Shown: positions 3,617 to 64,000 of the stretch, one piece after another
How positions within the stretch are numbered: position 1 is the stretch's first letter
Layout: every line of letters starts with the position of its first letter
DNA from: Eggerthella sp.
GTDB lineage: Bacteria; Actinomycetota; Coriobacteriia; Coriobacteriales; Eggerthellaceae
Direction of reading: 5' to 3'
Assembly (NCBI GenBank): GCA_030540085.1
Contig: JAUNWY010000005.1
Location: 1 to 64,000, forward strand
DNA length: 64,000 nt
The notes under the pieces: model-generated
Told to the model about the DNA's origin: nothing
The model's input: only the letters and a program-made list of their open reading frames with translations
Database searches by the model: none
Program-made: the position numbers and the translations under genes

Positions 3617-4066
3617 ATGGCTCGCAGTCAAAGCGAATTGGCGCAGTCAATTGCGCTTGCGGCCCATAAAGGCCAGGTGGACAAAGCGGGAAAGCCCTAC
3701 ATAGAGCATCCTGCTCATGTTGCATCTGTCGTGCAAGGCGATGCCGCGAAAGCTGTAGCGTGGTTGCATGATGTGGTCGAAGACACCCCGCTTACGTTTG
3801 CCGATCTTCGGGGAAGGGGCGTAGCACCCGAAGTTGTCGAGGCACTGAAACTGCTTACCCACGATGAATCGGTGCCGTACCTCGAATATGTTCGCTCCCT
3901 TAAGCCGAATCCGCTTGCTCGTGCGGTGAAGCTTGCCGATTTGCGCCACAACAGCGACCTGTCCAGGCTTCCGCGCATTACCGAAAAAGACCAACGTCGC
4001 GCAGAGAAATACGCAAAGGCTATTGCCATCCTTGAAGGGGAGGGGCCAGAAGGCGGGGAACAATAG
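3617..4066 (+). CDS. Small HD-domain hydrolase, SpoT/MESH1-like
   Basis: This encodes 149 residues. The ATG at 3617 is preceded by AGGAGGAAACC. It is a single HD-type domain: H31 (EHPAHVA), H51-D52 (LHDVVEDTP) and a downstream KLADLRHNSD segment at about 105-114. This arrangement matches the hydrolase half of RelA/SpoT proteins (compare HPVEVA and HDTVEDT in the large enzyme at 10374) and stand-alone alarmone hydrolases. No synthetase domain is present. It may cleave (p)ppGpp or another nucleotide; the substrate cannot be read from sequence. It follows the mscL terminator closely and probably has its own promoter. Confidence 0.75.
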   Translation: MARSQSELAQSIALAAHKGQVDKAGKPYIEHPAHVASVVQGDAAKAVAWLHDVVEDTPLTFADLRGRGVAPEVVEALKLLTHDESVPYLEYVRSLKPNPLARAVKLADLRHNSDLSRLPRITEKDQRRAEKYAKAIAILEGEGPEGGEQ

Positions 4067-4154
4067 GCGGAAGGCGGCACACCGTGTTCCGTAACACCAT
4101 TTCAATGGGACAATTCCGCTGATTAGACCCCTCATTTTACAGGCTGGCTGGGCG

Positions 4155-4160
4155 TACAAT
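4155..4160 (+). promoter_or_regulatory. -10 element suggesting a leaderless transcript
   Basis: TACAAT lies 6 nt before the ATG at 4167, so transcription would begin at or within a base or two of the start codon. No ribosome binding site is visible. Leaderless genes with a TANNNT box at this spacing are common in actinobacteria. Confidence 0.45.
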
Positions 4161-4166
4161 TGCTAC

Positions 4167-5369
4167 ATGAAACTCCCGAGCGAACATATTGAAGATTTAG
4201 ACGTAAAGCATCACGGCATCCATCTTGAGGGCATGCGAGCGCGCTCGGCGGAACGCGCTGCGGAGCGGGCGCTTGCCCATAATCCTTTGCTGGTGGTTTC
4301 GGCGGTGGCGGCTCTGGTAACGATGTTCTTCGTTCCTCCCTCTATTGCGTATCTTGATTATTTCAACTGGCATACCCTGGCCTGCCTATTCAGCATTCTT
4401 GCAGTAATTGCCGCCATCGATTCTTCAGGGCTGCTTGAATTCGTTGCCCATTCCTTGGTGCAGCATGTAACCAGCACGCGAACCTTGGTAATTGCCTTGG
4501 TGCTGATTACGCTCGGCTGTTCGATGATTTTGTCTAACGACATGACACTGATTGCTGTCTTACCCCTTGCTTTGGTGCTTCTGAAATCGGTTAACCGCGA
4601 ATCGGAGATCCCGTTCGCTTTCATCGCCATCACCCTTACCGCCAATTTTGGCGGAATGCTGCTGCCATTCAGCAAGCCCCACAATTTGTATCTGTACACA
4701 GTGTTCGGGGTTAGCTTCGGTGATTTCGTTGCGGCTATGACTCCTCCGCTTGTTTTGTCAGTGGCGCTCATTCTTGTTTGTTGCTGCTTTGTGAAGAAGG
4801 CGGAGTTCCATTACCGAAAACCCGAAAGCATTCAGGTGTCTAAGCCGCGCGTTGCAATATACGTTGTTTTGTTTGCACTCTGCATAGCAATGACGGTTGG
4901 TGCGGCGCCGTTTTTGATGGGCATGACCGTTATCATCGTTGTTCTTGCCATTACCGACAGAAGGGTATTCGCAAAGACCGATTACGCCTTGGTGATGACA
5001 TTTGTCTGCTTCTTCATTTTTAGCGGGAACATTGCTCAGATCCCCGCCATTTCCGACTTCTTTAGCACCGTTTTGGATGCTTGTGGCGCATTCGCGACCT
5101 CGCTTGTCAGCAGCCAGATTATCAGCAATGTGCCCAGTGCAATTCTGATCAGCCATTTCTCGAACGACTGGGCGGGCATTGCCCTTGGCACCAACGTGGG
5201 CGCAGTAGGTACGCCCATTTCCTCCTTGGCAACGCTCATTACCCTTCGGCAGTATCAGAAGTCGGGGCTGGGTAGCAACGGCAAGTTTATCGCTCGCTTT
5301 GAGGCATATAACTTCGCCTTCCTGGTAGTTGTTTCCCTGTTCGAGCTTTTCGTTATGGGAATCCGTTAG
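4167..5369 (+). CDS. Ion-transporter superfamily permease (ArsB/CitM/SLC13-like)
   Basis: This encodes 400 residues. After a soluble N-terminal stretch of about 45 residues there are about ten hydrophobic segments. Two regions recall the inverted-repeat signatures of the ArsB/NhaD/SLC13 superfamily: a SNDMT segment near residue 127 and an SNVPSA segment near 318, each following a hydrophobic helix. Such permeases move oxyanions, dicarboxylates or citrate, usually with H+ or Na+. The substrate is not evident, and there are no ars genes nearby. The start lacks a Shine-Dalgarno site but has a -10 box 6 nt upstream. A later in-frame Met at residue 23 is less likely because it has no proper spacing either. 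Confidence 0.75.
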   Translation: MKLPSEHIEDLDVKHHGIHLEGMRARSAERAAERALAHNPLLVVSAVAALVTMFFVPPSIAYLDYFNWHTLACLFSILAVIAAIDSSGLLEFVAHSLVQHVTSTRTLVIALVLITLGCSMILSNDMTLIAVLPLALVLLKSVNRESEIPFAFIAITLTANFGGMLLPFSKPHNLYLYTVFGVSFGDFVAAMTPPLVLSVALILVCCCFVKKAEFHYRKPESIQVSKPRVAIYVVLFALCIAMTVGAAPFLMGMTVIIVVLAITDRRVFAKTDYALVMTFVCFFIFSGNIAQIPAISDFFSTVLDACGAFATSLVSSQIISNVPSAILISHFSNDWAGIALGTNVGAVGTPISSLATLITLRQYQKSGLGSNGKFIARFEAYNFAFLVVVSLFELFVMGIR

Positions 5370-5469
5370 CCTGCATGGCCTTTTGCCCCTTCGGAAGGTT
5401 GGCTGTTTTCCTTGTTCCCTTGTATGCGCCGCTAGCTTCCAAGGGTGCGCAAATCCTGGATAAGCTCCG

Positions 5470-5475
5470 TATAAT
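5470..5475 (+). promoter_or_regulatory. -10 box of the alcohol dehydrogenase gene
   Basis: A perfect TATAAT lies about 85 bases before the start codon, inside the short palindrome CGTATAATACG. No good -35 element is seen, so it may need an activator. Confidence 0.4.
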
Positions 5476-5560
5476 ACGGGCATAGAGGGCGGTTTCTTGC
5501 TGCCTTTCGCTCAGTTTTTGCTGATTAGACAGCCTTAAAGAAGCGACGAAAGGACGTTCC

Positions 5561-6766
5561 ATGAACGATTTCGAGTTTTACTCTCCAACCCGATTCGTGT
5601 TCGGGCGTGGTGTCACCGATGCGGTGGGGCAGCACGTTGCTGAGCTCGGTTACAAGCGTGCTCTGCTTGTGTATGGTGGCGGATCGGTGGTGCGCACGGG
5701 AACCTTGGCGCGCGTAAAGGAATCGCTTGCAAAGGCGGGCATCGAATTCGTTGAGCTTTCGGGTGTGCGTCCCAACCCCGAAGTGGCCTCTGTACGTGAG
5801 GGCATTGCTGTAGCTCGAGAAAATGATGTCGACCTGGTGCTTCCCGTTGGTGGTGGCAGCACGATCGACTGTGCGAAGGCTATTGCGTTCGGCGTGTTCC
5901 ATGATGGTGACGTGTGGGATTTCTTCGCCAAGAAGGCAGTCATCGAGCAGGCATTGCCGCTTATGTGCGTGCTTACCATTCCCGCTGCGGGTTCGGAGGG
6001 TTCCAGCTCGTGCGTTATTTCGAACGATAGCATCGACGCGAAATTCGGCGTGAATTCCGATCTTATCCGTCCTAAGGTTTCGTTCCTGGATCCCGAGCTT
6101 ACTTTTACCCTGCCCGCCTACCAGACGGCAGCGGGCGTAACCGACATGATTGCCCATATATGCGAGCGCTTCTTCAGCGGCACAGGGTCTTCCGAGGTTA
6201 CCGATAACATTGCTACGGGCATTATCCGTACGCTTATCAACCAGGCTCCGGTGGCAATTGCCGAACCCGAGAATTACGAGGCTCGTGCCAACATCATGTG
6301 GTCGGGTACGCTTGCTCACAACGATCTTGCGGGCTGCGGTCTTAACGCCGTGCCTACGAGCCGTGCCGGCGGGTGGGAAAGCCATGCCCTGGAGCATCAG
6401 CTGTCCGCATTCGACACCTCGATTACCCACGGTGCTGGTTTGGCTGTTATGATGCCGGCGTGGATGCGTTTCGTGTGGCGCGAAGACCCCAATCGTTTCC
6501 TCGCGTTTGCCGATTTGGTATTTGGCATTGAACCGGTAGACGAAACAGAAGAAGCTGTGGAAGATGCAGTCACGGCTGCCATCGATGAGCTGCAAGCGTT
6601 CTTTGCTGAATTGGGTATGCCTACCAAGCTGGGCGAATTCGGCTTGAAGCCTGAAAACATTGATTCGTTTTTGGCAACTTTGAAGGCAAACAAGGGCGAA
6701 GTGTTTGGCGGCTTTAAGAAGATCACCTTGGAAGACGCGCGCGTTATCTACGAGTCTGCATTCTAA
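5561..6766 (+). CDS. Iron-containing alcohol dehydrogenase (YqhD/BdhA-like)
   Basis: This encodes 401 residues, normal length for group III Fe-dependent alcohol dehydrogenases that interconvert aldehydes or ketones and alcohols with NAD(P)H. The N-terminal dinucleotide-binding half contains the GGGS motif at 97-100 (PVGGGSTIDCAKA). The C-terminal helical half contains the metal-ligand series: Asp and His in VTDMIAH, His in HALEHQ, and His in THGAGLAVMMP. The wording of these motifs resembles the butanol dehydrogenase/YqhD group, which often detoxifies reactive aldehydes or closes fermentation redox balance. The ATG at 5561 has GAAAGGA upstream. It is a single gene with its own -10 box. Confidence 0.9.
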   Translation: MNDFEFYSPTRFVFGRGVTDAVGQHVAELGYKRALLVYGGGSVVRTGTLARVKESLAKAGIEFVELSGVRPNPEVASVREGIAVARENDVDLVLPVGGGSTIDCAKAIAFGVFHDGDVWDFFAKKAVIEQALPLMCVLTIPAAGSEGSSSCVISNDSIDAKFGVNSDLIRPKVSFLDPELTFTLPAYQTAAGVTDMIAHICERFFSGTGSSEVTDNIATGIIRTLINQAPVAIAEPENYEARANIMWSGTLAHNDLAGCGLNAVPTSRAGGWESHALEHQLSAFDTSITHGAGLAVMMPAWMRFVWREDPNRFLAFADLVFGIEPVDETEEAVEDAVTAAIDELQAFFAELGMPTKLGEFGLKPENIDSFLATLKANKGEVFGGFKKITLEDARVIYESAF

Positions 6767-51063: not shown

Positions 51064-53004
51064 TTACGCTAAGCTTCTTTCGTCTCCCGATCGTTTCGTG
51101 ATGCGCTTTTCGTCAAAGTATTCAAGAAGGGGAATGGCGTACTTGCGGCTTGTGCCCATCGCATCTTTGAGCTCGGTTGCCGTGGCGCTTCCTTTTTCCT
51201 GGAGACATGCAACAGTTGCCTCCCGCAGTTGCTGCAGTGACTCTGCGGTAAAGCAGTAGGTTTTGTTCACACGCAATGCCCGCCCTTGTTTCTCAAGTGC
51301 TAAGAGCGCTTTTCGGCCTTGCGCTGCATCAAGCCCTGCTTCCTCAAAGACATCATCAACAGGAGGTGGGGTAGTGCCATGTGAATGAAGCGCGGCGTAG
51401 AGGGAATCGGCTGCCTGTTTTTCCAAATTGCGGGCTCCGGCTCCTGCCTTTGGATGGCTAATCTCGTTTTTCTCAAGGACAAGCTTTCCTGTTGCTATGG
51501 CTTCTTCCAGCAATGCCTTGAAGCATTCGTCTGGCAGATGGCGTGGGTAGCGCTGCTTAAGGGCGTTGATTGCCATGCCAGTAGCAGCTGGCTCGTTTGC
51601 ATGGAAAGCCACCAGGATATTCTCCATGGCCATGATGTGTCGTTGAACCGTGGTGCGCTTGGCCCAGAGCCCATGGTTTGCGCCCAATGAAGTGTATTCA
51701 GGTCGTTTGGCGTTTTTGGCTTCTGACCCTAGCAATTTGGCAATGCGTTCCACGGGGAGGTTGGCAATACGGGAAATCTCCTTTATCGAAATGGGGATAT
51801 CGCATGAATCGATAATCGCATGGCAGATGGCAAGATCGTCGCTTTCCATCAAAGCGGCTAGAAGCGAGCGGTCCGTATCCTTCAAGTTTGTTCGGTGGTG
51901 CGGGGTGCTGTTAAGAACGGTGCCGCCGCCAATGACGCGAACTGGCGAAAACGATCGAACGATAAAGCGGTCACTGCGTGAAATGGGCAAGGGCACGTCG
52001 AGGCGTATTTGCGCGAAGGCGGTTTGCCCTGGGGCAAGTTCGTTGAGACCATCCATCAAAAGAAGGCGCCCCGTTACTTCTCGGGTGCCATGGGCAATGT
52101 GTACGGTTGATCCGCTTTCAAGCGGCTTTGCTTGCGCGTTGGTTGCAGGCAGGTAGGTAAACTGGGCATCGAAGCGGTTGCTTGCCTCCAAGGTGCCTGG
52201 CGTTATCAGGAAATCACCAGGATCGAGGTCTTCTTTTTTAACGCCCACCAAATTCAGTGCGGTTCGGTTGCCGGCAAGGCTTTCTTGAACCTCGGATCCA
52301 TGAACCTGCACTGACCTTACACGCGTGAGGATGCCCGAAGGAACCACCTCAAGCTCCATGTCGGGCACGACAGACCCTTGCCATAGGGTTCCCGTTACAA
52401 CCGTGCCTGCGCCCTTGATGGTGAAAACGCGATCGATGGGAAGGCGGACGGGGCCTTCCTTGGAGGTGCTTCTTAGTTTCTGGGCCTGATCTGCAAGAAC
52501 ACTCTTTAGCTCATCGAGCTCCTGTCCTGTTCGTGCGGAAACGGGAACAAGCGGAGCATCTGCAAAGGGTGTTCCTTCTAAGCCTGCCCGCACTTCCTCG
52601 CTGACCAGCTCAATCCATTCTTCATCTACAAGATCGCATTTGGTGAGGGCGATAACACAGTTGGTGATGCCGAGCAGCTGAAGGACTGCGGTGTGCTCGC
52701 GTGTTTGGGGCATGATCCCGTCATCTGCCGCTATGCACAAAAGGGCAAGGTCAATGCCGGAAGCGCCGGCGATCATTTGCCGGACAAAGCGCTCGTGGCC
52801 CGGCACGTCCACCACACCAAGAGACGTTCCGTCGGGAAGGGGGAGGCGGGCGAATCCCAGTTCAATGGTGATTCCTCTGCGCTTTTCTTCGGCAAGGCGG
52901 TCTGGGTCGGTGCCGGTAAGCGCTTCGATCAGCGTTGATTTGCCGTGATCGATATGGCCGGCAGTGCCGACGATAAGAGGGCTTTCGCTTTTATGGTGTG
53001 CCAT
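51064..53004 (-). CDS. selB: Selenocysteine-specific elongation factor
   Basis: This encodes 646 residues from the ATG at 53004 (GGAG upstream on the minus strand). GTPase motifs: [12 protein letters not shown] (G1), DVPGHERFV (G3), TKCD (G4) and VSARTG (G5). EF-Tu-like beta-barrel domains follow, then a C-terminal series of winged helices (about 370-646) that bind the SECIS hairpin of selenoprotein mRNAs. It delivers Sec-tRNA to in-frame UGA. The start is 13 bases after the selA stop, so selA-selB is one operon. Length is normal. Confidence 0.95.
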
Positions 53005-53017
53005 GGGGAACTCCAAA

Positions 53018-54460
53018 CTAATGAGAGCGAGCAAGGAAGCTTGCGAGTGCTGCGGCGATTTCTTCGACCTCTTCGTCGCTCATGAGGGTTCGTGCGTCGA
53101 AGAGCAGTTTCTCTCGGTTGATACGGGCGATGATGGGGGTGCGACGGTTTTGGGCAAGGTAGGCGGCGCACTCTTGCGCGTTCCAGCCCAAGGGCTCGAT
53201 TTCAACCGTATAGGAGGGGACGTCATACATGGGAAGAGAGCCGCCTCCTGCACGCGCGATGCTCGTCACAACGGAGACCACGCACGATCCTTCGGGGACC
53301 GAAGCAGAAACTGCTTTGCGTAGCGATTCTGCCTGCGCTTCCACTGTTTCGGCTGGTGCGGTGAGCATGTGCAAGGTGGGTATGCTCTCGTGTGCCTTTT
53401 CGGGGTCGAGGTACAGGCGAAGGGTGGCTTCGAGTGCGGCGATGGTCATTTTGTCGAGGCGCAAAGCACGTGCTAACGGATTCTTCTTCAGGCGATCTAT
53501 CAGGCATTTGTTGCCGACAATGATGCCTGCTTGTGGGCCGCCGAGCAGTTTGTCTCCAGAGAAGGAAACCAGATCGCAGCCTTCAAGCGCTTCAGTTACC
53601 GTGGGTTCTCCGTAGCCTTCGAGGCCTCGCAGTGGAAGGAGCATGCCGGAGCCAAGATCCTCATATACCAGAAGGCTATCTTCGCCGGTGCCGCTTCTGC
53701 GCTCGTTTTCACGAGCGGCAATCGCCTTCAATTCTTTTGCCTCTACCGATTCAGTAAAACCGATAAGGCGATAGTTGGAGGTATGAACCTTCAGCAGCAT
53801 GGCGGTATCGGGTGTGATAGCGCGCTCGTAATCGGAGGGGTGGGTTTTGTTGGTTGTTCCCACTTCAATCATGTGCGCATTGGAGAAGTCCATGATATCG
53901 GGGATGCGGAACGAGCCGCCTATTTCGATGAGTTCGCCACGGGAGATGACCGCTTGACGGTTGCGGGCGAATTCGTTGAGTACCATCATCACTGCAGCGG
54001 CATTGTTGTTGACCGCAATTGCTGCTTCTGCTCCAGTCAGGGTACAGATCAGCTCTTCGCAGTGGGAATGCCTGCTGCCGCGCTGCATGGTGGCGAGGTC
54101 GTATTCCAGCGTGGAGTAGCCCTTTGCGGCGTTTTTGACTGCCGTTACCGCTTGCGGTGCGAGGGCGCTTCGTCCCAGATTTGTATGGAGTATCACGCCT
54201 GTGGCGTTGATTACCTGCTTGAGTGAGGGCTCGGCTTGTGCCTGCAGGCGACGGAGCGTTCCGTTTGCTATCTCTTCTTCCGTGGGCGCCGAACTACCTT
54301 CAAGGATCATAGTGCGGGCTGCTTCAACTTCCTTGCGAATGCAATCGACTACCAGTTCGTGGGGAAAGGCTTCCATTGAAATAGACCGAGAAAGCGTGGT
54401 GAGCACTTCGTCTACGGCGGGAAGGGCTCGCAGGGCTTTGAGCTGGAGTTCTGTTGGCAT
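53018..54460 (-). CDS. selA: L-seryl-tRNA(Sec) selenium transferase
   Basis: This encodes 480 residues from the ATG at 54460 (AGAGGTT upstream on the minus strand; a TTG three codons earlier overlaps that site). It is a fold-type I PLP enzyme: NATGVILHTNLGRSALA, AVNNNAAAVMMVLNEFA, SRGELIEIGGSFRIPDIM, VGTTNKTHPSDYERAI, and the PLP lysine in FSGDKLLGGPQAGIIVG. It converts Ser-tRNA(Sec) to Sec-tRNA(Sec) with selenophosphate. It is first of the selA-selB operon and divergent from yedE. Confidence 0.96.
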   Translation of the reverse strand: MPTELQLKALRALPAVDEVLTTLSRSISMEAFPHELVVDCIRKEVEAARTMILEGSSAPTEEEIANGTLRRLQAQAEPSLKQVINATGVILHTNLGRSALAPQAVTAVKNAAKGYSTLEYDLATMQRGSRHSHCEELICTLTGAEAAIAVNNNAAAVMMVLNEFARNRQAVISRGELIEIGGSFRIPDIMDFSNAHMIEVGTTNKTHPSDYERAITPDTAMLLKVHTSNYRLIGFTESVEAKELKAIAARENERRSGTGEDSLLVYEDLGSGMLLPLRGLEGYGEPTVTEALEGCDLVSFSGDKLLGGPQAGIIVGNKCLIDRLKKNPLARALRLDKMTIAALEATLRLYLDPEKAHESIPTLHMLTAPAETVEAQAESLRKAVSASVPEGSCVVSVVTSIARAGGGSLPMYDVPSYTVEIEPLGWNAQECAAYLAQNRRTPIIARINREKLLFDARTLMSDEEVEEIAAALASFLARSH

Positions 54461-54525
54461 AGTTTGCAACCTCTTCTGTGTCTGATCGGTTCAAACCCAA
54501 GTGTCGGGAGTGTATTCAAGCGCAC

Positions 54526-54637: not shown

Positions 54638-54861
54638 GGCAAAAGCATGATGTTCAGCTGTTTTCTGCCTATGAGCTGGCCACGATGTGTTTGCCGTCGT
54701 TGCCCGATCGGGCCTTTGCTGCGCTTGATTCTGCCCCAAGCGCCATCTTTTCTGCATCCCCGCCCGTGTGGTGGGTTTCCTGTTGTGTCGGGCAAACTGC
54801 GCCATCCCCCCAGTGCGGCATTAGCAGCTTTGCCCCTTCCCCCTCAATGAAGGAGACTTGC
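54638..54861 (+). promoter_or_regulatory. Long, possibly structured yedE leader
   Basis: Complementary segments inside the leader include GTTTGCC (about 54690) with GGCAAAC (about 54793), GCCC-GATC-GGGC near 54706, and GCGCTT with AAGCGC enclosing 11 bases near 54722-54744. It ends in AAGGAG before the GTG. No known riboswitch family was recognised. An open frame runs through it without a start signal and is judged non-coding. Confidence 0.35.
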
Positions 54862-55923
54862 GTGAATTCTGAGACTAAAGAACGAGTGATTCTCGTTGCA
54901 TGCGGCGTTGTTGCTGCTGCCGTTGCTATCATGCTCGCATCGAACGGCAATCCGGGCAACATGGCAATTTGCATCGCCTGTTTTGTTCGTGATACCGCTG
55001 GCGCCATGAAGCTGCAGACCAACGAAACGGTGCAGTACCTGCGCCCCGAAATCATTGGCATCATTGTTGGCGCTTGCGTTATGGCATTTGCGAACAAGGA
55101 ATTCAAGGCAACAGCTGGTTCTTCCCCCTTTACCCGCTTTGTCCTTGGCTTTGTAATGATGATTGGCTGCCTGATCTTCCTGGGTTGCCCGCTGCGTATG
55201 GTATTGCGTATGGCGGGTGGCGATCTTAACGCCTGGGTTGCCCTTATTGGTTTTGCTGCCGGTATCGGTGTTGGCGTCCTGTTCTTGAAAAAGGGCTTTT
55301 CGCTGGGTCGTGCTGAAGCGGTAAAGAAAGCAGAAGGCCTTATTCTTCCTATTATTGTTGTTGCCGTGTTCATCCTGAGCATTACCACCACTGTGTTTGC
55401 CGTTTCCCAGTCGGGTCCTGGCAGCATGCATGCCCCAGTTGTTCTTTCCATCATCGGCGGTATTGCTTTTGGCGTTATCGCTCAGCGCACGCGTCTTTGC
55501 TTCGCCGGCGGCCTGCGTGACACCTTCCTGGTACGTGATGGTTGGGGTTTGGTTGTAATCGGTATCCTGTTTGCCGGCGTGCTCATTTACAACCTTGCTT
55601 CTGGGCATTTCAACCTTAGCTTCGCCGATCAGCCCATCGCTCATACCGATGCCCTTTGGAACATTTTGGGTATGTTTGTTGTGGGTTTCAGCGCTACGCT
55701 TTTGGGCGGCTGTCCTCTGCGTCAGATGGTATTGGCTGGCTCTGGTTCCGGCGATTCCGCTGTAACGTTTATCGGACTTCTGGTTGGAGCAGCATTTGCT
55801 CACAATTTCGGCATTGCCTCAAGCCCCAAGGGCGTAACCGAGGCTGGTCAGATTGCCACCGTAGTTTGCATCGTCGTATTGTTCGTCATTGCCGCTGTTA
55901 ACCTTAAGCGTGCACGTTCATAA
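54862..55923 (+). CDS. yedE: YedE-type membrane transporter linked to selenium use
   Basis: This encodes 353 residues; the GTG at 54862 has AAGGAG 5 bases upstream, while the frame upstream contains that site within it. About nine to ten transmembrane helices form two related halves, each with a Cys motif (LGCPLRMVLRMAGG and LGGCPLRQMVLAGSG), plus AICIACFVRDT and RTRLCFAGGLRD. This is the YeeE/YedE family, whose YedE branch occurs with selenium genes and is thought to import a selenium or sulfur species. A TusA-like gene follows after 11 bases, a common pairing in which the carrier accepts the imported chalcogen. Confidence 0.9.
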   Translation: MNSETKERVILVACGVVAAAVAIMLASNGNPGNMAICIACFVRDTAGAMKLQTNETVQYLRPEIIGIIVGACVMAFANKEFKATAGSSPFTRFVLGFVMMIGCLIFLGCPLRMVLRMAGGDLNAWVALIGFAAGIGVGVLFLKKGFSLGRAEAVKKAEGLILPIIVVAVFILSITTTVFAVSQSGPGSMHAPVVLSIIGGIAFGVIAQRTRLCFAGGLRDTFLVRDGWGLVVIGILFAGVLIYNLASGHFNLSFADQPIAHTDALWNILGMFVVGFSATLLGGCPLRQMVLAGSGSGDSAVTFIGLLVGAAFAHNFGIASSPKGVTEAGQIATVVCIVVLFVIAAVNLKRARS

Positions 55924-55934
55924 AGGAGCTCAAT

Positions 55935-56141
55935 ATGGTTACCGTAGACGCAAAGGGTTTGTTTTGCCCCGAACCATTAATGATGACCCAGGATGCCCTT
56001 AAAAAGAATCCTGGCGAACAGGTGGTTGTAGAGGTTGATAGCGCATCTCCGCGCGATAATATCCTGCGCCTTGCCCGTCGCAAGAAGCTGAATGCCACTG
56101 TTGATGAAAAAGATGGTGTGTTCACCATTACTATCGGCTAA
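55935..56141 (+). CDS. TusA/SirA-like sulfur or selenium carrier
   Basis: This encodes 68 residues from the ATG at 55935 (AAAGGAGC upstream). It is a single TusA domain with the diagnostic FCPEP: Cys11 is expected to carry a persulfide or perselenide. VTVDAKGLFCPEPLMMTQDAL is followed by the VEVDSASPRDNILRLARR helix region typical of YeeD-like partners of YedE. It forms a two-gene unit with yedE and is followed by a strong terminator. Confidence 0.9.
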   Translation: MVTVDAKGLFCPEPLMMTQDALKKNPGEQVVVEVDSASPRDNILRLARRKKLNATVDEKDGVFTITIG

Positions 56142-56208: not shown

Positions 56209-56611
56209 ATGCAAATGAAAACGGATTTAGGCCAAGCGTATTGCAGCGCGTTTGTCGTTTTGGGCGTACCGTAGGCTGTTTTTGCCCAGGGGAAATCGGC
56301 CTATTGAGCTATAGTTTCAGACATCGAGGGCAACCGATTGTCTGTGGCCGATTCTGCGCTTTGCCATCCTAACCGTTCCGATTGCCCGTTTATTTCACCC
56401 TATGCTAAACAAAGGGTGGCGTTCGCGTGTCTGCGACGCGTTCGCGCTTCTGCACCATTGAGTGGCGGTCGCAATGTGTGCCCATGTTCAGCTTTGCCCG
56501 AAGCCATGCTCGCATGTTCGCTGCTCACGTTCACACCGAAAGAAAGAGCGAGGAAGCCGACAGCCCGAAAGAGATCTGGCGGTATTTTCCCTCGCGCGAA
56601 GGGAGAAACTG
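56209..56611 (+). other. Upstream region of the dehydratase-like operon
   Basis: About 400 bases without a recognised gene; a reading frame entering from 56462 has no start signal. TATAGT at 56310-56315 is the only -10-like box seen and would leave a leader of nearly 300 bases. A CGCGT/ACGCG hairpin lies near 56427-56443. Confidence 0.35.
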
Positions 56612-57886
56612 ATGGCAGATAATCATGAAATGTGGAAGAACCTGGGTATGGATCTCGAAACACACGATCAGCTCTGTGCTGTTCTTCCCACCGCATTTGG
56701 CGATGTGTATTTGAGCCAGGAAAATCGTCCGGAGGGAATGGCATTTTACGATTTCGTCGTTTCCGACATTCACGGTATTCGACCTGCAGAGCTTATAGAG
56801 CTTCAAAAGGCGGGTGGCAAGGTGTTCGGCACCTTTTGCGTGTATGTCCCCGATGAGGTGGTAATTGCATGCGGCGGCGCTGTCACTGGTTTGTGCGGTG
56901 GCTCGCAGTTCTGGGTTCCCGAGGGTGAAAAGGTGTTGCCTGCTGATACCTGCCCGCTGGTCAAGGCTTCATTGGGTGCACATTTTGGCAAGACCTGCCC
57001 CTATTTCAGCGTTGCCGATATGTATGTGGGTGAAACCACCTGTGATGCTAAGAAGAAGGCGTATGAAATCCTAGGCGCCGACAAGCAGACTTACGTTATG
57101 GACATGCCCCAGATGAAGCGCGCCAAGGACATTGAGAAATGGACGGGTGAAATTGCTGAGTTTGCTCGTGAGGTTGAACGCGTGACCGGCAATGAGCTTA
57201 CCGCTGAAAAACTTGCCGAGGCCATCAAGGTTATCAACGCCAAGCGTCGTGCTCTGGCGCGTGTTTTTGCGGCTACCAAGAACAAGGACTGCATTCCTAT
57301 TTCCGGTAAGGACCGCCTGCTCATGACCCAGATCGCGTTCTTCGACGATCCGGAGCGCTGTGCTCAGAAGGCAAACGAGCTTGCCGACGAGCTCGAGCAG
57401 CGCATTGCCGATGGGGTAAGCGTATTCCCCGAGGGTACCAAGCGCATTCTGATCACCGGCACGCCCATGGCTATTCCCAATTGGAAGCTCCATCATGTTA
57501 TTGAGACCAGCGGTGCAGCTGTGGTTTGCGAGGAAATGTGTACGGGAACGCGCTACTTCGAGCATTTGGTCGACGAAACCCAAACCACTATCGAGGGTCA
57601 GTTCCAGGCTATTTCTGAGCGCTATATGAAGAACAACTGCGCCTGCTTCACGCCCAATACCGGTCGAATCGACGACATTATCCGCCTGGCGCGTGAGTAC
57701 CAGGTTGATGGTGTTATCGATGCCAACCTGAAGTTCTGCACCACCTACAATGTGGAGAAGTCCTCGGTCGCTGCTGCTCTCGAGGCAGAAGGCATTCCTT
57801 GCCTTGATTTGGAAACCGACTATACCGATAACGATGCTGAACAGCTGCGTACGCGCATCCAAGCATTTGTCGAGATGCTTGGCTAG
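56612..57886 (+). CDS. 2-hydroxyacyl-CoA dehydratase D-like / double-cubane-cluster reductase (YjiM-like)
   Basis: This encodes 424 residues from the ATG at 56612 (AAGGGAGAAACTG upstream). Single-chain homologue of the Fe-S component of 2-hydroxyacyl-CoA dehydratases. Conserved-looking cysteines occur in CGGAVTGLCGGSQFW, DTCPLVKAS, GKTCPYFS, ETTCDAKKK, VCEEMCTGTRYF, NNCACFTPNTGR and LKFCTTYN. Stand-alone forms with a matching activator are ATP-dependent low-potential reductases with a double-cubane cluster. No CoA-pathway genes are nearby; the activator, DUF3343 and YedF genes are. This favours reduction of a small sulfur or selenium compound, which is inference. Confidence 0.85.
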   Translation: MADNHEMWKNLGMDLETHDQLCAVLPTAFGDVYLSQENRPEGMAFYDFVVSDIHGIRPAELIELQKAGGKVFGTFCVYVPDEVVIACGGAVTGLCGGSQFWVPEGEKVLPADTCPLVKASLGAHFGKTCPYFSVADMYVGETTCDAKKKAYEILGADKQTYVMDMPQMKRAKDIEKWTGEIAEFAREVERVTGNELTAEKLAEAIKVINAKRRALARVFAATKNKDCIPISGKDRLLMTQIAFFDDPERCAQKANELADELEQRIADGVSVFPEGTKRILITGTPMAIPNWKLHHVIETSGAAVVCEEMCTGTRYFEHLVDETQTTIEGQFQAISERYMKNNCACFTPNTGRIDDIIRLAREYQVDGVIDANLKFCTTYNVEKSSVAAALEAEGIPCLDLETDYTDNDAEQLRTRIQAFVEMLG

Positions 57887-57896
57887 TTAAGTCCTT

Positions 57897-57931
57897 GCCG
57901 GGTGGGGTCTCGTGCCCACCCGGCTTTTATT
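57897..57931 (+). terminator. Terminator between reductase and activator genes
   Basis: 10-bp perfect stem GCCGGGTGGG with CCCACCCGGC, 8-nt loop and TTTTATTT. Since the two products should work together, read-through or a stoichiometric drop is likely. Confidence 0.8.
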
Positions 57932-57949
57932 TGAGCAGAAAGGGAGATC

Positions 57950-58708
57950 ATGCTGGGGATTGGAATCGACATCGGCTCAACGGCAACGAAGGTTGCCGCC
58001 GTAGACGAGCGGGGTGCCGTTGTCGACTCGTGGATGAACCCGACTGGTTTCAGCAGTGTTGAGGCAGCCAATGCCGCTAGGGCGCACCTCGAAGAAGCGG
58101 GCTTGCTTGCCCAAGATCATTCCGTGGTTGCCACAGGGTACGGCCGTAACGCTGTTTCTTATGCCGACAAGGTGGTAACTGAAATCACGTGCCACGGAAA
58201 AGGTGCTGCGTGTCTGTTCGGTCCCGATGGAGCGGTGATAGACGTTGGCGGCCAAGACACAAAGGTTATTTGGCTATCCGATGGCGTGGTGAAGAAGTTC
58301 CTGATGAATGATAAATGCGCTGCGGGGACGGGCCGTTTCTTGGAGATCATGGCCGATAGGCTTGCGGTAAGTCAGCTTGAATTGGCCGATTTGGCACGTT
58401 TCGGCAAGCCCACTACGATTTCAAGCATGTGCACGGTGTTCGCTGAGAGCGAAGTTATTTCCCTTGTTGGAAGGGGGGAGCCCCGCGAGAACATTGCTCG
58501 TGGAGTAATCGATTCCGTTGTTGGCCGTGTTGCCGCTATGGCATCGGGCACGAAAGGGATGCCCGTTTACCTTACCGGCGGTCTTTGTGCTAATGAGTTT
58601 ATTATCGAGTGCCTCTCTTCTGCCCTCGACACCACGGTGAAAACCTGCCCCGAAGCGCGCTATGCCGGTGCTATTGGGGCTGCTCGTATTGCGGCTGGTG
58701 TTGCGTAA
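57950..58708 (+). CDS. BadF/HgdC-type activase ATPase (YjiL-like)
   Basis: This encodes 252 residues from the ATG at 57950 (AAAGGGAG upstream). ASKHA ATPase fold: GIDIGSTATKVAAVD (phosphate 1), AVIDVGGQDTKVI (phosphate 2) and PVYLTGGLCAN (adenosine). C123 (NDKCAAGTGRFLE) and C161 (SSMCTVFAESEVISL) are the two cysteines per subunit that hold the [4Fe-4S] cluster bridging the dimer. It would drive ATP-dependent electron injection into the preceding reductase. Its stop overlaps the ATG of the first DUF3343 gene by one base. Confidence 0.92.
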   Translation: MLGIGIDIGSTATKVAAVDERGAVVDSWMNPTGFSSVEAANAARAHLEEAGLLAQDHSVVATGYGRNAVSYADKVVTEITCHGKGAACLFGPDGAVIDVGGQDTKVIWLSDGVVKKFLMNDKCAAGTGRFLEIMADRLAVSQLELADLARFGKPTTISSMCTVFAESEVISLVGRGEPRENIARGVIDSVVGRVAAMASGTKGMPVYLTGGLCANEFIIECLSSALDTTVKTCPEARYAGAIGAARIAAGVA

Positions 58709-58971
58709 TGCCAGCGAAGGATGCGTGTTACGTGCTTGTGCGCACGAGTACCGAGGCTTTTGATCTATACGAACGCATAAGGGATGCAGGCGTGCCTGCG
58801 CGGGTGGCCCCTGCCCCTCATGGTATGCAGGCATGCTGCGGAACTTCCGTGATGCTTGAGCCTGCCGATGTGGATCGTGCACGTGCCGTTATTGATGAGG
58901 CACCGTATCCCATTGAACGTATTGTTCGTGTTGCGGGTGCGGTCGACCCCTCACGTGACAAGTTCTGTTAA
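58708..58971 (+). CDS. DUF3343 protein, first copy
   Basis: This encodes 87 residues; the ATG at 58708 overlaps the activase stop (TAATG), so translation is coupled. DUF3343 is a short domain that co-occurs with selenium genes across anaerobes; a carrier role has been proposed. Here ACYVLVRTSTEAFDLYERIRDAG is followed by APAPHGMQACCGTSVMLE with C43-C44-G45, and the chain ends DKFC with a terminal Cys. It has two more Cys than the other copies and is the one most suited to holding a chalcogen. Confidence 0.85.
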   Translation: MPAKDACYVLVRTSTEAFDLYERIRDAGVPARVAPAPHGMQACCGTSVMLEPADVDRARAVIDEAPYPIERIVRVAGAVDPSRDKFC

Positions 58972-59070
58972 GGGGTGCCTATCGATGCCGCTGATGTTCT
59001 CACCGTTTCCTGGGCGGAACTTACCGCTTTGAACGGTTAGGGTGATGTCTTGTGGGGTAGGGTTGTTTTC

Positions 59071-59283
59071 ATGATTATTGTTGCTTTCCATACCACGGCT
59101 GACGCATTCGGGTTTGAAGAAATAGCCAAGCGCTACGGCCTTGAAGGTCGTTTGGGCACTATCCCGCGGAGCATTTCGGCTGGTTGCGGTTTTGCCTGGC
59201 TTGTCGAACAGGGCTCTAGGGAAATTCTTCAGCGATTCATCATCCAGCAGGGACTTGAGTGCGAAGGGATATACGAACAATGA
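59071..59283 (+). CDS. DUF3343 protein, second copy
   Basis: This encodes 70 residues from the ATG at 59071 (GGGGTAGGG upstream, spacing slightly long). It has the shortened domain: MIIVAFHTTADAFGFEEIA then IPRSISAGCGFAWLVEQG with the single C39 in the CG motif. Its stop codon lies inside the start of the glycosyltransferase gene (ATGA overlap), so the two are translationally coupled, the strongest sign that the glycosyltransferase belongs to the selenium group. Confidence 0.82.
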   Translation: MIIVAFHTTADAFGFEEIAKRYGLEGRLGTIPRSISAGCGFAWLVEQGSREILQRFIIQQGLECEGIYEQ

Positions 59284-60488
59284 GGATTCTGAATATTACC
59301 GCCCAAAAGCCCGATAGTACGGGCAGCGGTGTGTACCTGGCTGAAATGGTGCGTTGCGAGGTTGCCGCCGGTCATAGTGCCGCGGTTATTTGCGGAATCG
59401 CCCCCGATGATCCGCTGCCGTTTCCTTCTTGCGTAAGCGCGTACCCGGTTCACTTCGAAACGGATGAGGTGCCGTTTCCCGTATGCGGTATGTCGGACGA
59501 AATGCCCTACCGGGCAACTCGGTATCGCGACATGGACAATAAGATGGTTTCTTGTTTTCGCGCTGCTTTCGCGAAGAGAATTGAGCGGGCGGTAGAGGAA
59601 TTTTGCCCCGATGTAGTGATATGCCATCACTTGTACCTGCTTACCGCTTTGGTGCGAAGCATGGTTTCCGACATCCCAGTGTTTGCCATTTGCCATTCCA
59701 CCGATCTTCGCCAAATGCGTACGCACAGCCTTGAGCGCGATACCATTATTGAAGGCGTCCGTACTCTGACGGGCATTTTTGCCCTCCATGGTGAGCAACG
59801 CGGCGAGATCATCGATCTGTACGGATGCGAGTCCTATAGCGTTCAGGTACTGGGTACTGGGTACAACTCCTCAGTGTTTAAGGCTTCATCCCCGCAGTCG
59901 CAGGAGGAAAGTGAGCTTTCGCTTCTGTACGTTGGCAAGATTTGGGAAAAGAAGGGCGTTGGGTGCTTGCTTGATGCCGTTGACCAGGTTCGGGTCCCTG
60001 GGAAACAGCTGAATCTTTGCCTGGTAGGTGGGCACAACGACGCTGCCGAATATCAGCGCTTTACCCAGCAGGCGGCTGCATGCAGCGCTGCTGTTGAGTT
60101 TGCGGGCCGCCTTGAAACGCATGAACTGGTGCGCGCCTATCAGAATGCCGACATTTTCGTACTCCCGTCCTTTTTTGAGGGGTTGCCCCTGGTTGTTGTC
60201 GAGGCGCTTGCCTGTGGTTGTCGTGTTGTGGTGAGCGATTTGCCTGGTATTCGCCCATGGCTCGAGGGGCACGTCCCTGATGCGCCTGTGGTGTTTGTGC
60301 GCCCGCCTCGTATGCGTACGGCAAACGACCCTTATCCCGAAGAGCTGGGTCCTTTCTCCGAGCGTATTGCTTGCGCTATTGGTGAAGCGGCGCATTTGGC
60401 TCCATTTGAGGGCGATATGCATTCGCTTACGTGGGAAGGTCTTACGGCTCGTTTTGTTTCTTTCGTTCGCCCATTCTGTAAGGGGTGA
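59280..60488 (+). CDS. GT4-family glycosyltransferase in the selenium operon
   Basis: This encodes 402 residues; the ATG at 59280 overlaps the DUF3343 stop. GT-B fold: N-terminal acceptor half (MRILNITAQKPDSTGSGVYL, CHHLYLLTALV, CHSTDLRQM) and C-terminal nucleotide-sugar half (LLYVGKIWEKKGVGCLLDAV, AGRLETHELVRAYQNADIFV) with the E-x7-E motif in EGLPLVVVEALACG near 298-307. GT4 enzymes transfer sugars from NDP-sugars; relatives act in BshA-type thiol and SenB-type selenosugar synthesis. Embedded between DUF3343 and desulfurase genes, it may glycosylate a selenium or sulfur acceptor. The family call is firm; the substrate is inferred only from context. Confidence 0.85.
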   Translation: MRILNITAQKPDSTGSGVYLAEMVRCEVAAGHSAAVICGIAPDDPLPFPSCVSAYPVHFETDEVPFPVCGMSDEMPYRATRYRDMDNKMVSCFRAAFAKRIERAVEEFCPDVVICHHLYLLTALVRSMVSDIPVFAICHSTDLRQMRTHSLERDTIIEGVRTLTGIFALHGEQRGEIIDLYGCESYSVQVLGTGYNSSVFKASSPQSQEESELSLLYVGKIWEKKGVGCLLDAVDQVRVPGKQLNLCLVGGHNDAAEYQRFTQQAAACSAAVEFAGRLETHELVRAYQNADIFVLPSFFEGLPLVVVEALACGCRVVVSDLPGIRPWLEGHVPDAPVVFVRPPRMRTANDPYPEELGPFSERIACAIGEAAHLAPFEGDMHSLTWEGLTARFVSFVRPFCKG

Positions 60489-60493
60489 TCTTC

Positions 60494-61642
60494 TTGATCT
60501 ATTTCGATAACGCCGCTACTACGCTTATGAAGCCGTCTGGGGTTGCCGCTGCTGTAGTGCGCGGTATCTCGTCTTTCGGCGGCGTGGGGCGCGGGGTACA
60601 TCCAGCATCCCTTGAAGCGGGCAGGGCCGTGTTTGAGACTCGTCGCAGTGTGGCGCGTTTGCTTGGTGCGCCATCGCCCTCATGCGTCTCGTTTGCTCTC
60701 AATGCCACTATGGCATTGAACATTGCCCTTCAGGGCATGGCGGTTCCTGGCTGCACGATCGTTACCACAGCGGCTTCGCACAATTCCGTGCTGCGCCCCT
60801 TGAACCGTCTTCGCGATGAATCGGGGTGTACGGTAAAAGTTGCCTCGATTAAGCCCGATGGTAGCCTTGATTTCGACGAATACGAGCGCCTGCTTTCGGA
60901 AGGTGACGTTCGCTATGTTGCTGCAACCCATGCATCGAACCTTACGGGCGATGTGTATAACGTTGCTCGTATGGCTCAGATTGCCCATAAGTATGGTGCC
61001 CTGTTCATTCTTGATGCCGCTCAAACCGCCGGTGCTCTTCCTTTGTCCCAAGAAGAACTCGGCGCCGATGTGGTGTGCTTTACGGGGCACAAGAGCTTGT
61101 TTGGCCCGCAGGGCACGGGAGGCCTTTGCGTTATGCCCGACCTCGACATAGCCCCTCTGGTGGAAGGCGGGTCGGGGACCCATACGTTCGATGAGCGTCA
61201 TCCGCGGTTCATGCCGGAAGCGCTTGAAGCGGGTACGGTAAATGCCCATGGATTGGCTGGCTTGGCAGCTGGCGTGCGTTATATTGAAGAAATGGGTGTC
61301 GACGCAATCCATGAGAAGGTATCTCGTCTAACGTCCCAGTTCGAGGAGGGCGTTTGTGGTATCGCGGGCGTTTCCGTCTTGGGCGGTCATGGGGGCATTG
61401 ATCGAAGCGGGGTTGTTGCCATCGATGTCGAGGGTGTCGACTCTTCGCTGCTGGGAGATGCTCTAGCGCGTGATTGGGGCATTTGTACCCGTGCTGGTGC
61501 TCACTGTGCGCCTTTGATGCACAGGGCGCTGGGTACCGAACAGCGCGGGGCGGTGCGATTCAGTTTCTCTTGCTTCAATACCGAAGAAGAGATAGCCAAG
61601 GGCATCGAAGCGCTCAAAGAAAGCGTGAACGCACTCAGGTAA
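60494..61642 (+). CDS. Class V cysteine desulfurase-like enzyme (selenium-linked)
   Basis: This encodes 382 residues; the TTG at 60494 has AAGGGG 7 bases upstream, better than a GTG at 60485 that overlaps the site. It opens IYFDNAATTLMKPSGV. The PLP lysine is K200 (FTGHKSLFGPQGTGG) and the catalytic cysteine C338 (RAGAHCAPLMHRALG), the wording of the SufS-like family often found beside selD and yedF. It would release sulfur or selenium from cysteine or selenocysteine as a persulfide/perselenide for carriers. The close spacing to the glycosyltransferase shows one operon; yedF follows. Confidence 0.9.
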   Translation: MIYFDNAATTLMKPSGVAAAVVRGISSFGGVGRGVHPASLEAGRAVFETRRSVARLLGAPSPSCVSFALNATMALNIALQGMAVPGCTIVTTAASHNSVLRPLNRLRDESGCTVKVASIKPDGSLDFDEYERLLSEGDVRYVAATHASNLTGDVYNVARMAQIAHKYGALFILDAAQTAGALPLSQEELGADVVCFTGHKSLFGPQGTGGLCVMPDLDIAPLVEGGSGTHTFDERHPRFMPEALEAGTVNAHGLAGLAAGVRYIEEMGVDAIHEKVSRLTSQFEEGVCGIAGVSVLGGHGGIDRSGVVAIDVEGVDSSLLGDALARDWGICTRAGAHCAPLMHRALGTEQRGAVRFSFSCFNTEEEIAKGIEALKESVNALR

Positions 61643-61687
61643 TCAATGGTGCTGCGTCTGTGGCGCCTTGCAGGAAAGGAAACGTAT

Positions 61688-62284
61688 ATGAAGGAAATCG
61701 ACGCACGCGGGCTGCAGTGCCCCAAGCCTCTGATGATGGCGAAGAAGGAACTTGATGGTGGCTGTGATTCGTTGTTGGTGAAGGTTAGCAACGAAGCTGC
61801 TGTCTCGAATCTTCAGCATTTGGCGGCTCGTATGGCACGTCCGGTTTCGGTTGAGCAGGAAGATGATTTCTGGAATGTTCGGATTGGCGGTATTGACGGG
61901 GGAGAGGCTGACACTCAAGTCGCTTCTTGCGAATGCGCTGAGTTGGAGCCCTATGCCGTATTTGTCGGTAAGGATTTTGTGGGTGATGGCGACGAAACAT
62001 TGGGTAAGAGCTTGATGAAAATGGCGCTGTACACCCTTTCGGAATCGGGCAATCCTCCCGCGCATTTGCTGTTCATGAACAGCGGCGTAAAGTTGGTTGC
62101 CGGCGGTGAGCAGGCAGTTGTCGACAGTGTTAGTTCTCTCATTGCTCAAGGCACAGAAGTCCTGGTATGCGGAACCTGTCTCGATTTCTACGGGCTGAAA
62201 GAGCAGCTTGCTGTAGGTGAGGTTTCCAACATGTATGACATTTTGGGACGCATGCAGGAAGCTTCAAAAACCATCACCTTGTAA
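61688..62284 (+). CDS. yedF: Selenium metabolism protein YedF
   Basis: This encodes 198 residues from the ATG at 61688 (AGGAAAGGAAACG upstream). The N-terminal TusA-like domain has C11 in LQCPKPLMMAKKEL. A short linker leads to a C-terminal DsrE-like domain (YAVFVGKDFVGDGDETLGKSLMKMALYTL) with EVLVCGTCLDFYGL. This fusion is the YedF family, a recognised marker of selenium-using genomes and thought to carry selenium to SelD. The third DUF3343 gene begins 2 bases after its stop. Confidence 0.92.
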   Translation: MKEIDARGLQCPKPLMMAKKELDGGCDSLLVKVSNEAAVSNLQHLAARMARPVSVEQEDDFWNVRIGGIDGGEADTQVASCECAELEPYAVFVGKDFVGDGDETLGKSLMKMALYTLSESGNPPAHLLFMNSGVKLVAGGEQAVVDSVSSLIAQGTEVLVCGTCLDFYGLKEQLAVGEVSNMYDILGRMQEASKTITL

Positions 62285-62286
62285 TC

Positions 62287-62562
62287 ATGGCGGAATATCT
62301 GGTCGCCTTTGGTTCGACCCACGCGGCACTCTCGTTCGAGGCCGCGTTTGGGCCTGAAGGCTCATTGGTCCCTGTGCCGCCCAAGGTGCGTGCAGGCTGC
62401 GGAATGGGACTCTTGTTTCGCTGCCCCGATGACGGCAAGGCGGTAAAGCGGGCGCGCAACGTAGCTTGTGAGCTGGGTGTTGAAGATCAGATCGATGGCT
62501 TGTTCGCGAAGGAGTCGGGATCCTATCGTTCCGTTCCTTTGGTAGAAGAAGGGCCTTGTTGA
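62287..62562 (+). CDS. DUF3343 protein, third copy
   Basis: This encodes 91 residues; the ATG at 62287 follows the yedF stop by two bases. It shows MAEYLVAFGSTHAALSFEAAF then VPPKVRAGCGMGLLFRC with C38 in the CG motif, and the chain ends EEGPC directly before UGA. Reading on would add only ten residues after that UGA. A strong terminator at 62680 ends the operon, making this the last gene of the plus-strand selenium cluster. Confidence 0.85.
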   Translation: MAEYLVAFGSTHAALSFEAAFGPEGSLVPVPPKVRAGCGMGLLFRCPDDGKAVKRARNVACELGVEDQIDGLFAKESGSYRSVPLVEEGPC

Positions 62563-63207: not shown

Positions 63208-64000
63208 TCAGCTGTCGATGAAAGTAAGATGGCCCGTGTTTCCTTCTGTTATGTATCCGATTCGTGCAGGCTTGCGACCGGAAAGCTCTTCGAACGTTTG
63301 CTCGAAGAGTGCTGAATTCTCAGCAGGGATGGCTGCCAGCATACCGCCTGAAGTTTGTGGGTCGCAGATGACCCCTAGGCGATTATCGAATTCTTCTTCC
63401 TCAATATTCCCTTGGTCGATGTAGCCCTCAAGATCATCCATGATGGAGAAGGTGCGGCCGGGACGGCAGTAATCGCAGGAAAGCTGCCAAACTTGTTCGA
63501 ATAGGGGGAGCGACGCGAAATCGATAACGGCGCTGCAATTGCTCGATTCGAGCATTTCATGCAAGTGGCCGGCCAATCCGAAGCCCGTTACATCGGTGGC
63601 GGCATGTACGCCTGCGGCTCGCATGGCCGCACCGCCTGCCGCATTCAATTCCATCATCGAATCGATTACGGGCCTCATTTCCGCTTCGGTGATCTGGTCG
63701 ATCTTTACCGCAGCGCTCATAATGCCGGTGCCCAAGGGCTTGGTGAGATACAGTACGTCACCAGGGCATGCGCCTTCGTTACGCACGATAGCATCGGGGG
63801 TAACCGTTCCGAACACCGAGAGACCATACTTTGGTTCCGTGTCGTCGATGGTGTGACCGCCGGAAACGAAGGCTCCTGCTTCAGCTACAGCATCCGCTCC
63901 GCCTTGGAGGATAGCCGCTGCGACATCGGTCCCGAGTGAGCAATCGAGCGCCAGTAAGTTCAGCGCAACATGAGGTTGAGCGCCCATGGCGAATACATCC
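63208..64000 (-). CDS. selD: Selenophosphate synthetase, C-terminal part (cut by window end)
   Basis: The frame is open to the window edge; about 264 residues are present and the N-terminus is missing, including the glycine-rich loop with the catalytic Cys or Sec. Visible family segments: DVFAMGAQPHVALNLLAL, SGGHTIDDTEPKYGLSVFG, DVLYLTKPLGTGIMSAA, TDVTGFGLAGHLHEML and the late CDPQTSGGMLAAIP. It makes selenophosphate from selenide and ATP, feeding SelA. It is convergent to the plus-strand selenium operon. Whether the catalytic residue is Sec cannot be seen here. Confidence 0.95.
   Translation of the reverse strand, partial: DVFAMGAQPHVALNLLALDCSLGTDVAAAILQGGADAVAEAGAFVSGGHTIDDTEPKYGLSVFGTVTPDAIVRNEGACPGDVLYLTKPLGTGIMSAAVKIDQITEAEMRPVIDSMMELNAAGGAAMRAAGVHAATDVTGFGLAGHLHEMLESSNCSAVIDFASLPLFEQVWQLSCDYCRPGRTFSIMDDLEGYIDQGNIEEEEFDNRLGVICDPQTSGGMLAAIPAENSALFEQTFEELSGRKPARIGYITEGNTGHLTFIDS

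Follow-up and report, generated by a model that had tools for sequence, protein, structure and literature searches.

The stretch of DNA analysed here (the window) covers positions 1 to 64,000 of contig JAUNWY010000005.1 of an Eggerthella sp. assembly (GCA_030540085.1; 1.56 Mb, 80% complete). Its forward strand carries an operon in which a GT4 glycosyltransferase (GT; 59280..60488, 402 amino acids, Pfam GT4 domains) of a selenium-associated subfamily without a name is encoded among genes of selenium and sulfur handling. GT is preceded by genes for an acyl-CoA dehydratase-type activase (57950..58708, TIGR00241) and two DUF3343 proteins resembling selenium/sulfur carriers (58708..58971 and 59071..59283, PF11823). 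It is followed by a TIGR01977-type cysteine desulfurase, similar to selenocysteine lyases (60494..61642, PF00266), YedF with TusA and DsrE domains (61688..62284, PF01206 and PF02635; TIGR03527, 177.2 bits, above the cut-off), and a third DUF3343 protein (62287..62562, PF11823). Upstream on the same strand lie genes for the putative selenium transporter YedE (54847..55923; TIGR04112, 462.7 bits, above the cut-off), a TusA-like carrier (55935..56141), and a double-cubane-cluster reductase (56609..57886; NF040772, above the cut-off). The operon is flanked on one side by selA and selB on the reverse strand (51064-54469), encoding selenocysteine synthase (53018..54469) and the elongation factor SelB (51064..53034). 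On the other side, also on the reverse strand, is a Sec-type selD (63208..64000; TIGR00476, 357.5 bits), which runs past the window end and has one in-frame TGA beyond it.

All families of the operon exceeded the Pfam gathering scores (three matches to PF11823, PF13692/PF00534, PF00266, and PF01206 with PF02635), and the desulfurase scored slightly below the TIGR01977 cut-off (368.7 vs. 377 bits). YedE, YedF, all three DUF3343 proteins, and SelD are present together, which places the locus within the YedE/YedF/DUF3343 selenium gene set. These genes have been described as selenium genes (Lin et al. 2015, PMC5322559), and the operon has the same components. The start codon of GT and the stop codon of the second DUF3343 gene share four bases (ATGA). 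The TTG start of the desulfurase gene is 5 bases past the GT stop and has AAGGGG upstream; an alternative GTG start at 60485 overlaps the GT stop. The activase stop and the first DUF3343 start have one base in common (TAATG). Re-reading of the window sequence bore out the gene order, coordinates, and start/stop couplings given in a preliminary description of this DNA. Since the same GT family adjoins selenium genes in many other genomes, the arrangement of the operon is far beyond chance.

The GT sequence scored 85.3, 82.2, and 36.1 bits against PF13692, PF00534, and PF13439, respectively, with the GT4 domains above the gathering score. Judged by its sequence, GT is an intact and complete GT4 enzyme. 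It reached no NCBIfam equivalog cut-off. Within the window's order, the orthologues scored about 198 bits or more, compared with about 70 for the next glycosyltransferase; the subfamily is therefore clearly bounded. It is a distinct, unnamed group of Coriobacteriia and Clostridia. Its motifs include TGSG (14-17), GMSDxMPY (70-77), H139/R144/Q145, and EX7E (300-308, with E300 and E308). Among 97 members from two phyla, the residues T14, G15, S16, G70, M71, S72, M75, P76, Y77, H117, L118, H139, K220, and K225 were invariant. Long open frames at two other loci were considered as possible GT gene fusions (L125, where the frame crosses masked bases, and L159), and neither gave a demonstrated fusion.

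The AlphaFold model of GT (mean pLDDT 91.8) has a GT-B fold. Its top structural neighbours were GlgM (Z 33.8), a sucrose-phosphate synthase-like enzyme (31.9), BshA (31.8), and MshA (30.8), with rows within one Z unit counted as tied, and a comparison of the sequence profile with the PDB placed the same group first. These enzymes use small acceptors bearing phosphate or carboxylate, and most of the acceptors are phosphorylated. From these nearest relatives we infer that the GT acceptor is a small molecule; GT is probably cytosolic and probably transfers the sugar of a nucleotide sugar to this acceptor. Identity with BshA or MshA was rejected. The profile comparison with BshA proposed in the preliminary description fell far short of the family cut-off (TIGR03999, 34.4 vs. 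273.7 bits), as did that with MshA (TIGR03449, 60.0 vs. 462.5 bits). GT shares with BshA and MshA the GT4 fold, a small acceptor, and Z values of about 31, whereas the GMSDxMPY motif belongs to the GT subfamily. GlgM and sucrose-phosphate synthase, which act on sugar phosphates, are the best neighbours in both structure and sequence; however, they are only about 14-20% identical to GT, and their glycogen/sucrose context is absent.

The preliminary description had also drawn an analogy with SenB, the glycosyltransferase of the selenoneine pathway. The likeness is that both are GT-B glycosyltransferases clustered with selenophosphate synthetase. A SenB-like identity was not borne out, as GT scored 36.8 bits against TIGR04348 (cut-off 300), with a match at residues 201-324 that covers only the nucleotide-binding half of the enzyme. 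The PDB sequence matches with E values up to 1e-6 did not include SenB, and neither did the 50 structural matches listed for the model, a listing that does not exclude SenB. SenB has a catalytic lysine, K158, for which the invariant K220 and K225 of the GT subfamily are possible counterparts, but a lysine at this place is general in GT4 enzymes. The donor motif of SenB, which in 2024 was called the only identified Se-glycosyltransferase, is EGGAHV (PMC10891094). This motif is absent from GT, which has EGLPLV at 300-305, and the rest of the subfamily is similar. Thus, by the cut-off and motif tests, SenB and GT belong to different families. In addition, the hosts of the GT subfamily are strict anaerobes, unlike those of SenB. 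No SenA partner was noticed near GT, although no genome-wide search for SenA was made.

A scan of GTDB genomes returned at least 569 GT relatives, of which 80 were kept; with the window, this gave 81 loci. In 28 of them, selA, selB, selD, yedF, or yedE was located at most 7 kb from GT. In different genomes GT abuts selA (divergent, 56-252 bp), selB (61 bp), selD (31-52 bp), yedF (52-100 bp), desulfurase (1-67 bp), activase (12-14 bp), and DUF3343 genes (-4 bp), and the gene orders included selB-GT (61 bp), GT-selD (52 bp), selD-GT (31 bp), yedF-GT (52-61 bp), desulfurase-GT (54-67 bp), and activase-GT (12-14 bp). The selenium context was found in Coriobacteriia, where the window GT groups with relatives from Eggerthellaceae-like genomes, and in separate places within Lachnospiraceae and Oscillospiraceae. 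On the GT tree it changed at least 10 times in the two phyla, with 6 of the changes forced by well supported branches. That GT has kept the same partners through repeated rearrangement argues more strongly than any other finding for a shared role. Homologues located mainly in cell-wall or capsule clusters had been named in advance as a result that would speak against such a role, and no context of this kind occurred among the loci scanned. Antisense open reading frame clusters in the GT neighbourhoods (C90, M425, P228) were discarded as candidates; they have no Pfam match and look like shadows of selA and selD.

The distribution of GT was compared with that of selD and selA. In the window's order, selD exceeded the cut-off in 15 of 16 GT carriers vs. 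19 of 43 non-carriers (Fisher p 4e-4; the genomes are not independent samples, so that this and the following p values overstate the strength and are upper-end estimates). In the named set, selD was present in 46 of 50 GT carriers regardless of local context, and 42 of these 46 genes were of the Sec type with an in-frame TGA. Among 150 Lachnospiraceae-type genomes, selA was found in 13/14 GT carriers vs. 9/136 non-carriers (p 4e-12), and among 398 genomes of the wider phylum in 17/17 vs. 240/381 (p 5e-4). All 22 selA-positive Lachnospiraceae-type genomes have selD, the remaining 30 of the 52 selD-positive genomes lack selA, and GT was present in none of these 30. In yedF-positive genomes of this type GT likewise tracks selA. 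Thus, in Lachnospiraceae selD was replaced by selA as the main correlate of GT; yet three Atopobiaceae-type carriers have selD, and selA was not found in them. Nearly all GT carriers have selD or selA, and the homologues did not prove to be concentrated in genomes lacking selD, a distribution that the preliminary description had set out as contrary evidence. Its proposal that GT belongs functionally with selenium use was upheld by both adjacency and co-occurrence, and GT very probably has a role in this process. A separate observation concerns the GT carriers Adlercreutzia faecimuris (L171) and Enterorhabdus sp. P55 (L172), which have selA and selB and are selenocysteine users; no selD was detected at the cut-off anywhere in either genome, and the gene may be missing, divergent, or unassembled.

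The same data bear on two improbable explanations. According to the first, GT is an ordinary glycosyltransferase of anaerobes without a selenium role, whose gene repeatedly came to lie near selenium genes and has the same host range as they do by common ancestry. This would agree with the fact that most Bacillota copies do not adjoin selenium genes and with the inflated p values. However, it is difficult to reconcile with several independent, rearranged selenium contexts in two phyla, with the lack of cell-envelope genes at the GT loci, and with the absence of GT from the 30 genomes of the same family that have selD but no selA. According to the second, which we regard as equally improbable, the target of GT is a macromolecule of the selenium system, such as a selenoprotein, a carrier protein (YedF or DUF3343), or an RNA. 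In favour of this, GT in one large family follows selA, and hence selenocysteine users, and not simply selD or yedF; in many genomes its gene lies directly beside selA and selB. On the other hand, its closest relatives act on small acceptors and are not protein or RNA glycosyltransferases, and the three Atopobiaceae-type carriers do not conform to the selA pattern.

Apart from selenium genes, GT has other recurrent neighbours. An ABC importer with a binding protein is encoded next to GT in about 14 loci (among them L065, L081, L092, L094, L104, L111, L113, L116, L117, L131, and L168). These loci come from both phyla and show both gene orders, and in L092 and L117 the importer and GT lie inside selenium clusters. 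The importer binding protein is nearest to 4r72-4r75, which we take to be the hexose-phosphate binder AfuA (the database title reads Fe3+ transport), and to the pyridoxal-phosphate-binding 6wce. A PHP phosphoesterase gene of conserved sequence follows or faces GT in many Bacillota (L150, L153, L155, L169, and Lachnospiraceae loci). Except for one weak hit, it is missing from the GT-bearing Coriobacteriia, and this absence rules it out there as an obligate second enzyme. The order thyA-folA-GT is kept in 18 Lachnospiraceae-type loci.

These neighbours are relevant to the main alternative to a selenium-containing product, in which GT glycosylates a selenium-free phosphorylated small molecule, in the manner of GlgM, sucrose-phosphate synthase, and MshA. 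The resulting glycoside, perhaps a precursor of a low-molecular-weight thiol, a redox buffer, or a carrier, would give indirect support to selenium chemistry or to metabolism that depends on selenoproteins. The acceptors of the nearest relatives in sequence and structure, the importer and the phosphoesterase, and the few GT carriers without selenium genes are all consistent with this explanation. At the same time, it leaves the tight tracking of selA unexplained, the phosphoesterase is lacking in Coriobacteriia, and the recurrent neighbour clusters that were scanned contained no partner resembling BshB/BshC or MshB/MshC. We consider this alternative possible, though on the unlikely side.

Our tentative prediction is that, in Coriobacteriia and Clostridia, GT belongs as a dedicated enzyme to the genes for selenium use. 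The single mechanism that we consider likeliest, although it is less likely than not, is formation of a seleno-glycoside. The acceptor would most likely be a selenium species that the neighbouring proteins produce or carry, either selenophosphate from SelD or hydroselenide/perselenide that the desulfurase, YedF, and DUF3343 pass on. The reaction would yield a seleno-glycoside of small size, which would serve as a buffer or reserve of selenium for making selenocysteine, and SenB-like chemistry would have been arrived at by a different GT subfamily. Such a reaction would account for the adjacency of GT to selD, desulfurase, yedF, and DUF3343 genes; that the product contains selenium, and that it serves for storage, is conjectural. 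Several results weigh against the seleno-glycoside. It does not explain the preference for selA, since selenophosphate should also be available in the 30 selD-positive Lachnospiraceae genomes without selA and GT. Nor does it explain the selenium-free carriers, namely two metagenome-assembled genomes and G212 (a 3.8 Mb contig), in which neither selA nor selD was found. Because of such carriers GT is not strictly dependent on selenium genes, and selenium as its sole possible acceptor is disfavoured. Furthermore, many Bacillota copies adjoin thyA-folA, the PHP phosphoesterase, or the importer instead of selenium genes, and the phospho-metabolite flavour of these partners weakens the case for a selenosugar. 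The profile score below the SenB family cut-off points in the same direction.

Few biological routes of selenium are known, and to our knowledge no anaerobe has been described with one that employs a glycosyltransferase. The only trace found in the literature is Table 1 of Lin et al. 2015 (PMC5322559), where the glycosyltransferase Shel_25140 of Slackia heliotrinireducens is listed without discussion as the rank 6 STRING partner of YedE; it is a candidate member of the GT subfamily. Two reviews, of 2022 and 2026, make no mention of such a glycosyltransferase. A conserved enzyme that tracks selenium users among gut bacteria of two phyla points to a step of selenium handling that has been missed so far, and the recurrence of this unstudied GT beside selenium genes in gut anaerobes suggests that the step is sugar-linked. 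It might even represent a third small-molecule pathway of selenium beside those of selenoneine and ovoselenol, which would be oxygen-independent, would operate in gut anaerobes through an unrelated GT4 subfamily, and would provide a seleno-glycoside with which the cell stores selenium or carries it to selenocysteine synthesis; this extension is rather doubtful.

Further observations were made on the gene clusters themselves. In Lachnospiraceae the order thyA-folA-GT-ilvB-ilvN is kept, and DUF3793 and DUF2325 genes frequently precede it (L060, L067, L088, L090, L120, and others). Two distant GT members (L157 and L160) lie beside apparent molybdate transporter genes, a possible link to molybdenum-selenium enzymes. 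The double-cubane reductase and the activase (56609-58708 in the window) are found again together with desulfurase, YedF, and DUF3343 in selenium clusters from two phyla (L053, L055, L062, L103, and L118), which suggests the reduction of a selenium compound. The genome with locus L051 (G000:C1) encodes a second double-cubane-like protein on the reverse strand, beside an activase that ends in a DUF3343 domain (5081-6205 and 3851-5008). This activase combines PF01869 and PF11823 within one protein, a natural fusion that links DUF3343 to the activase/double-cubane system.

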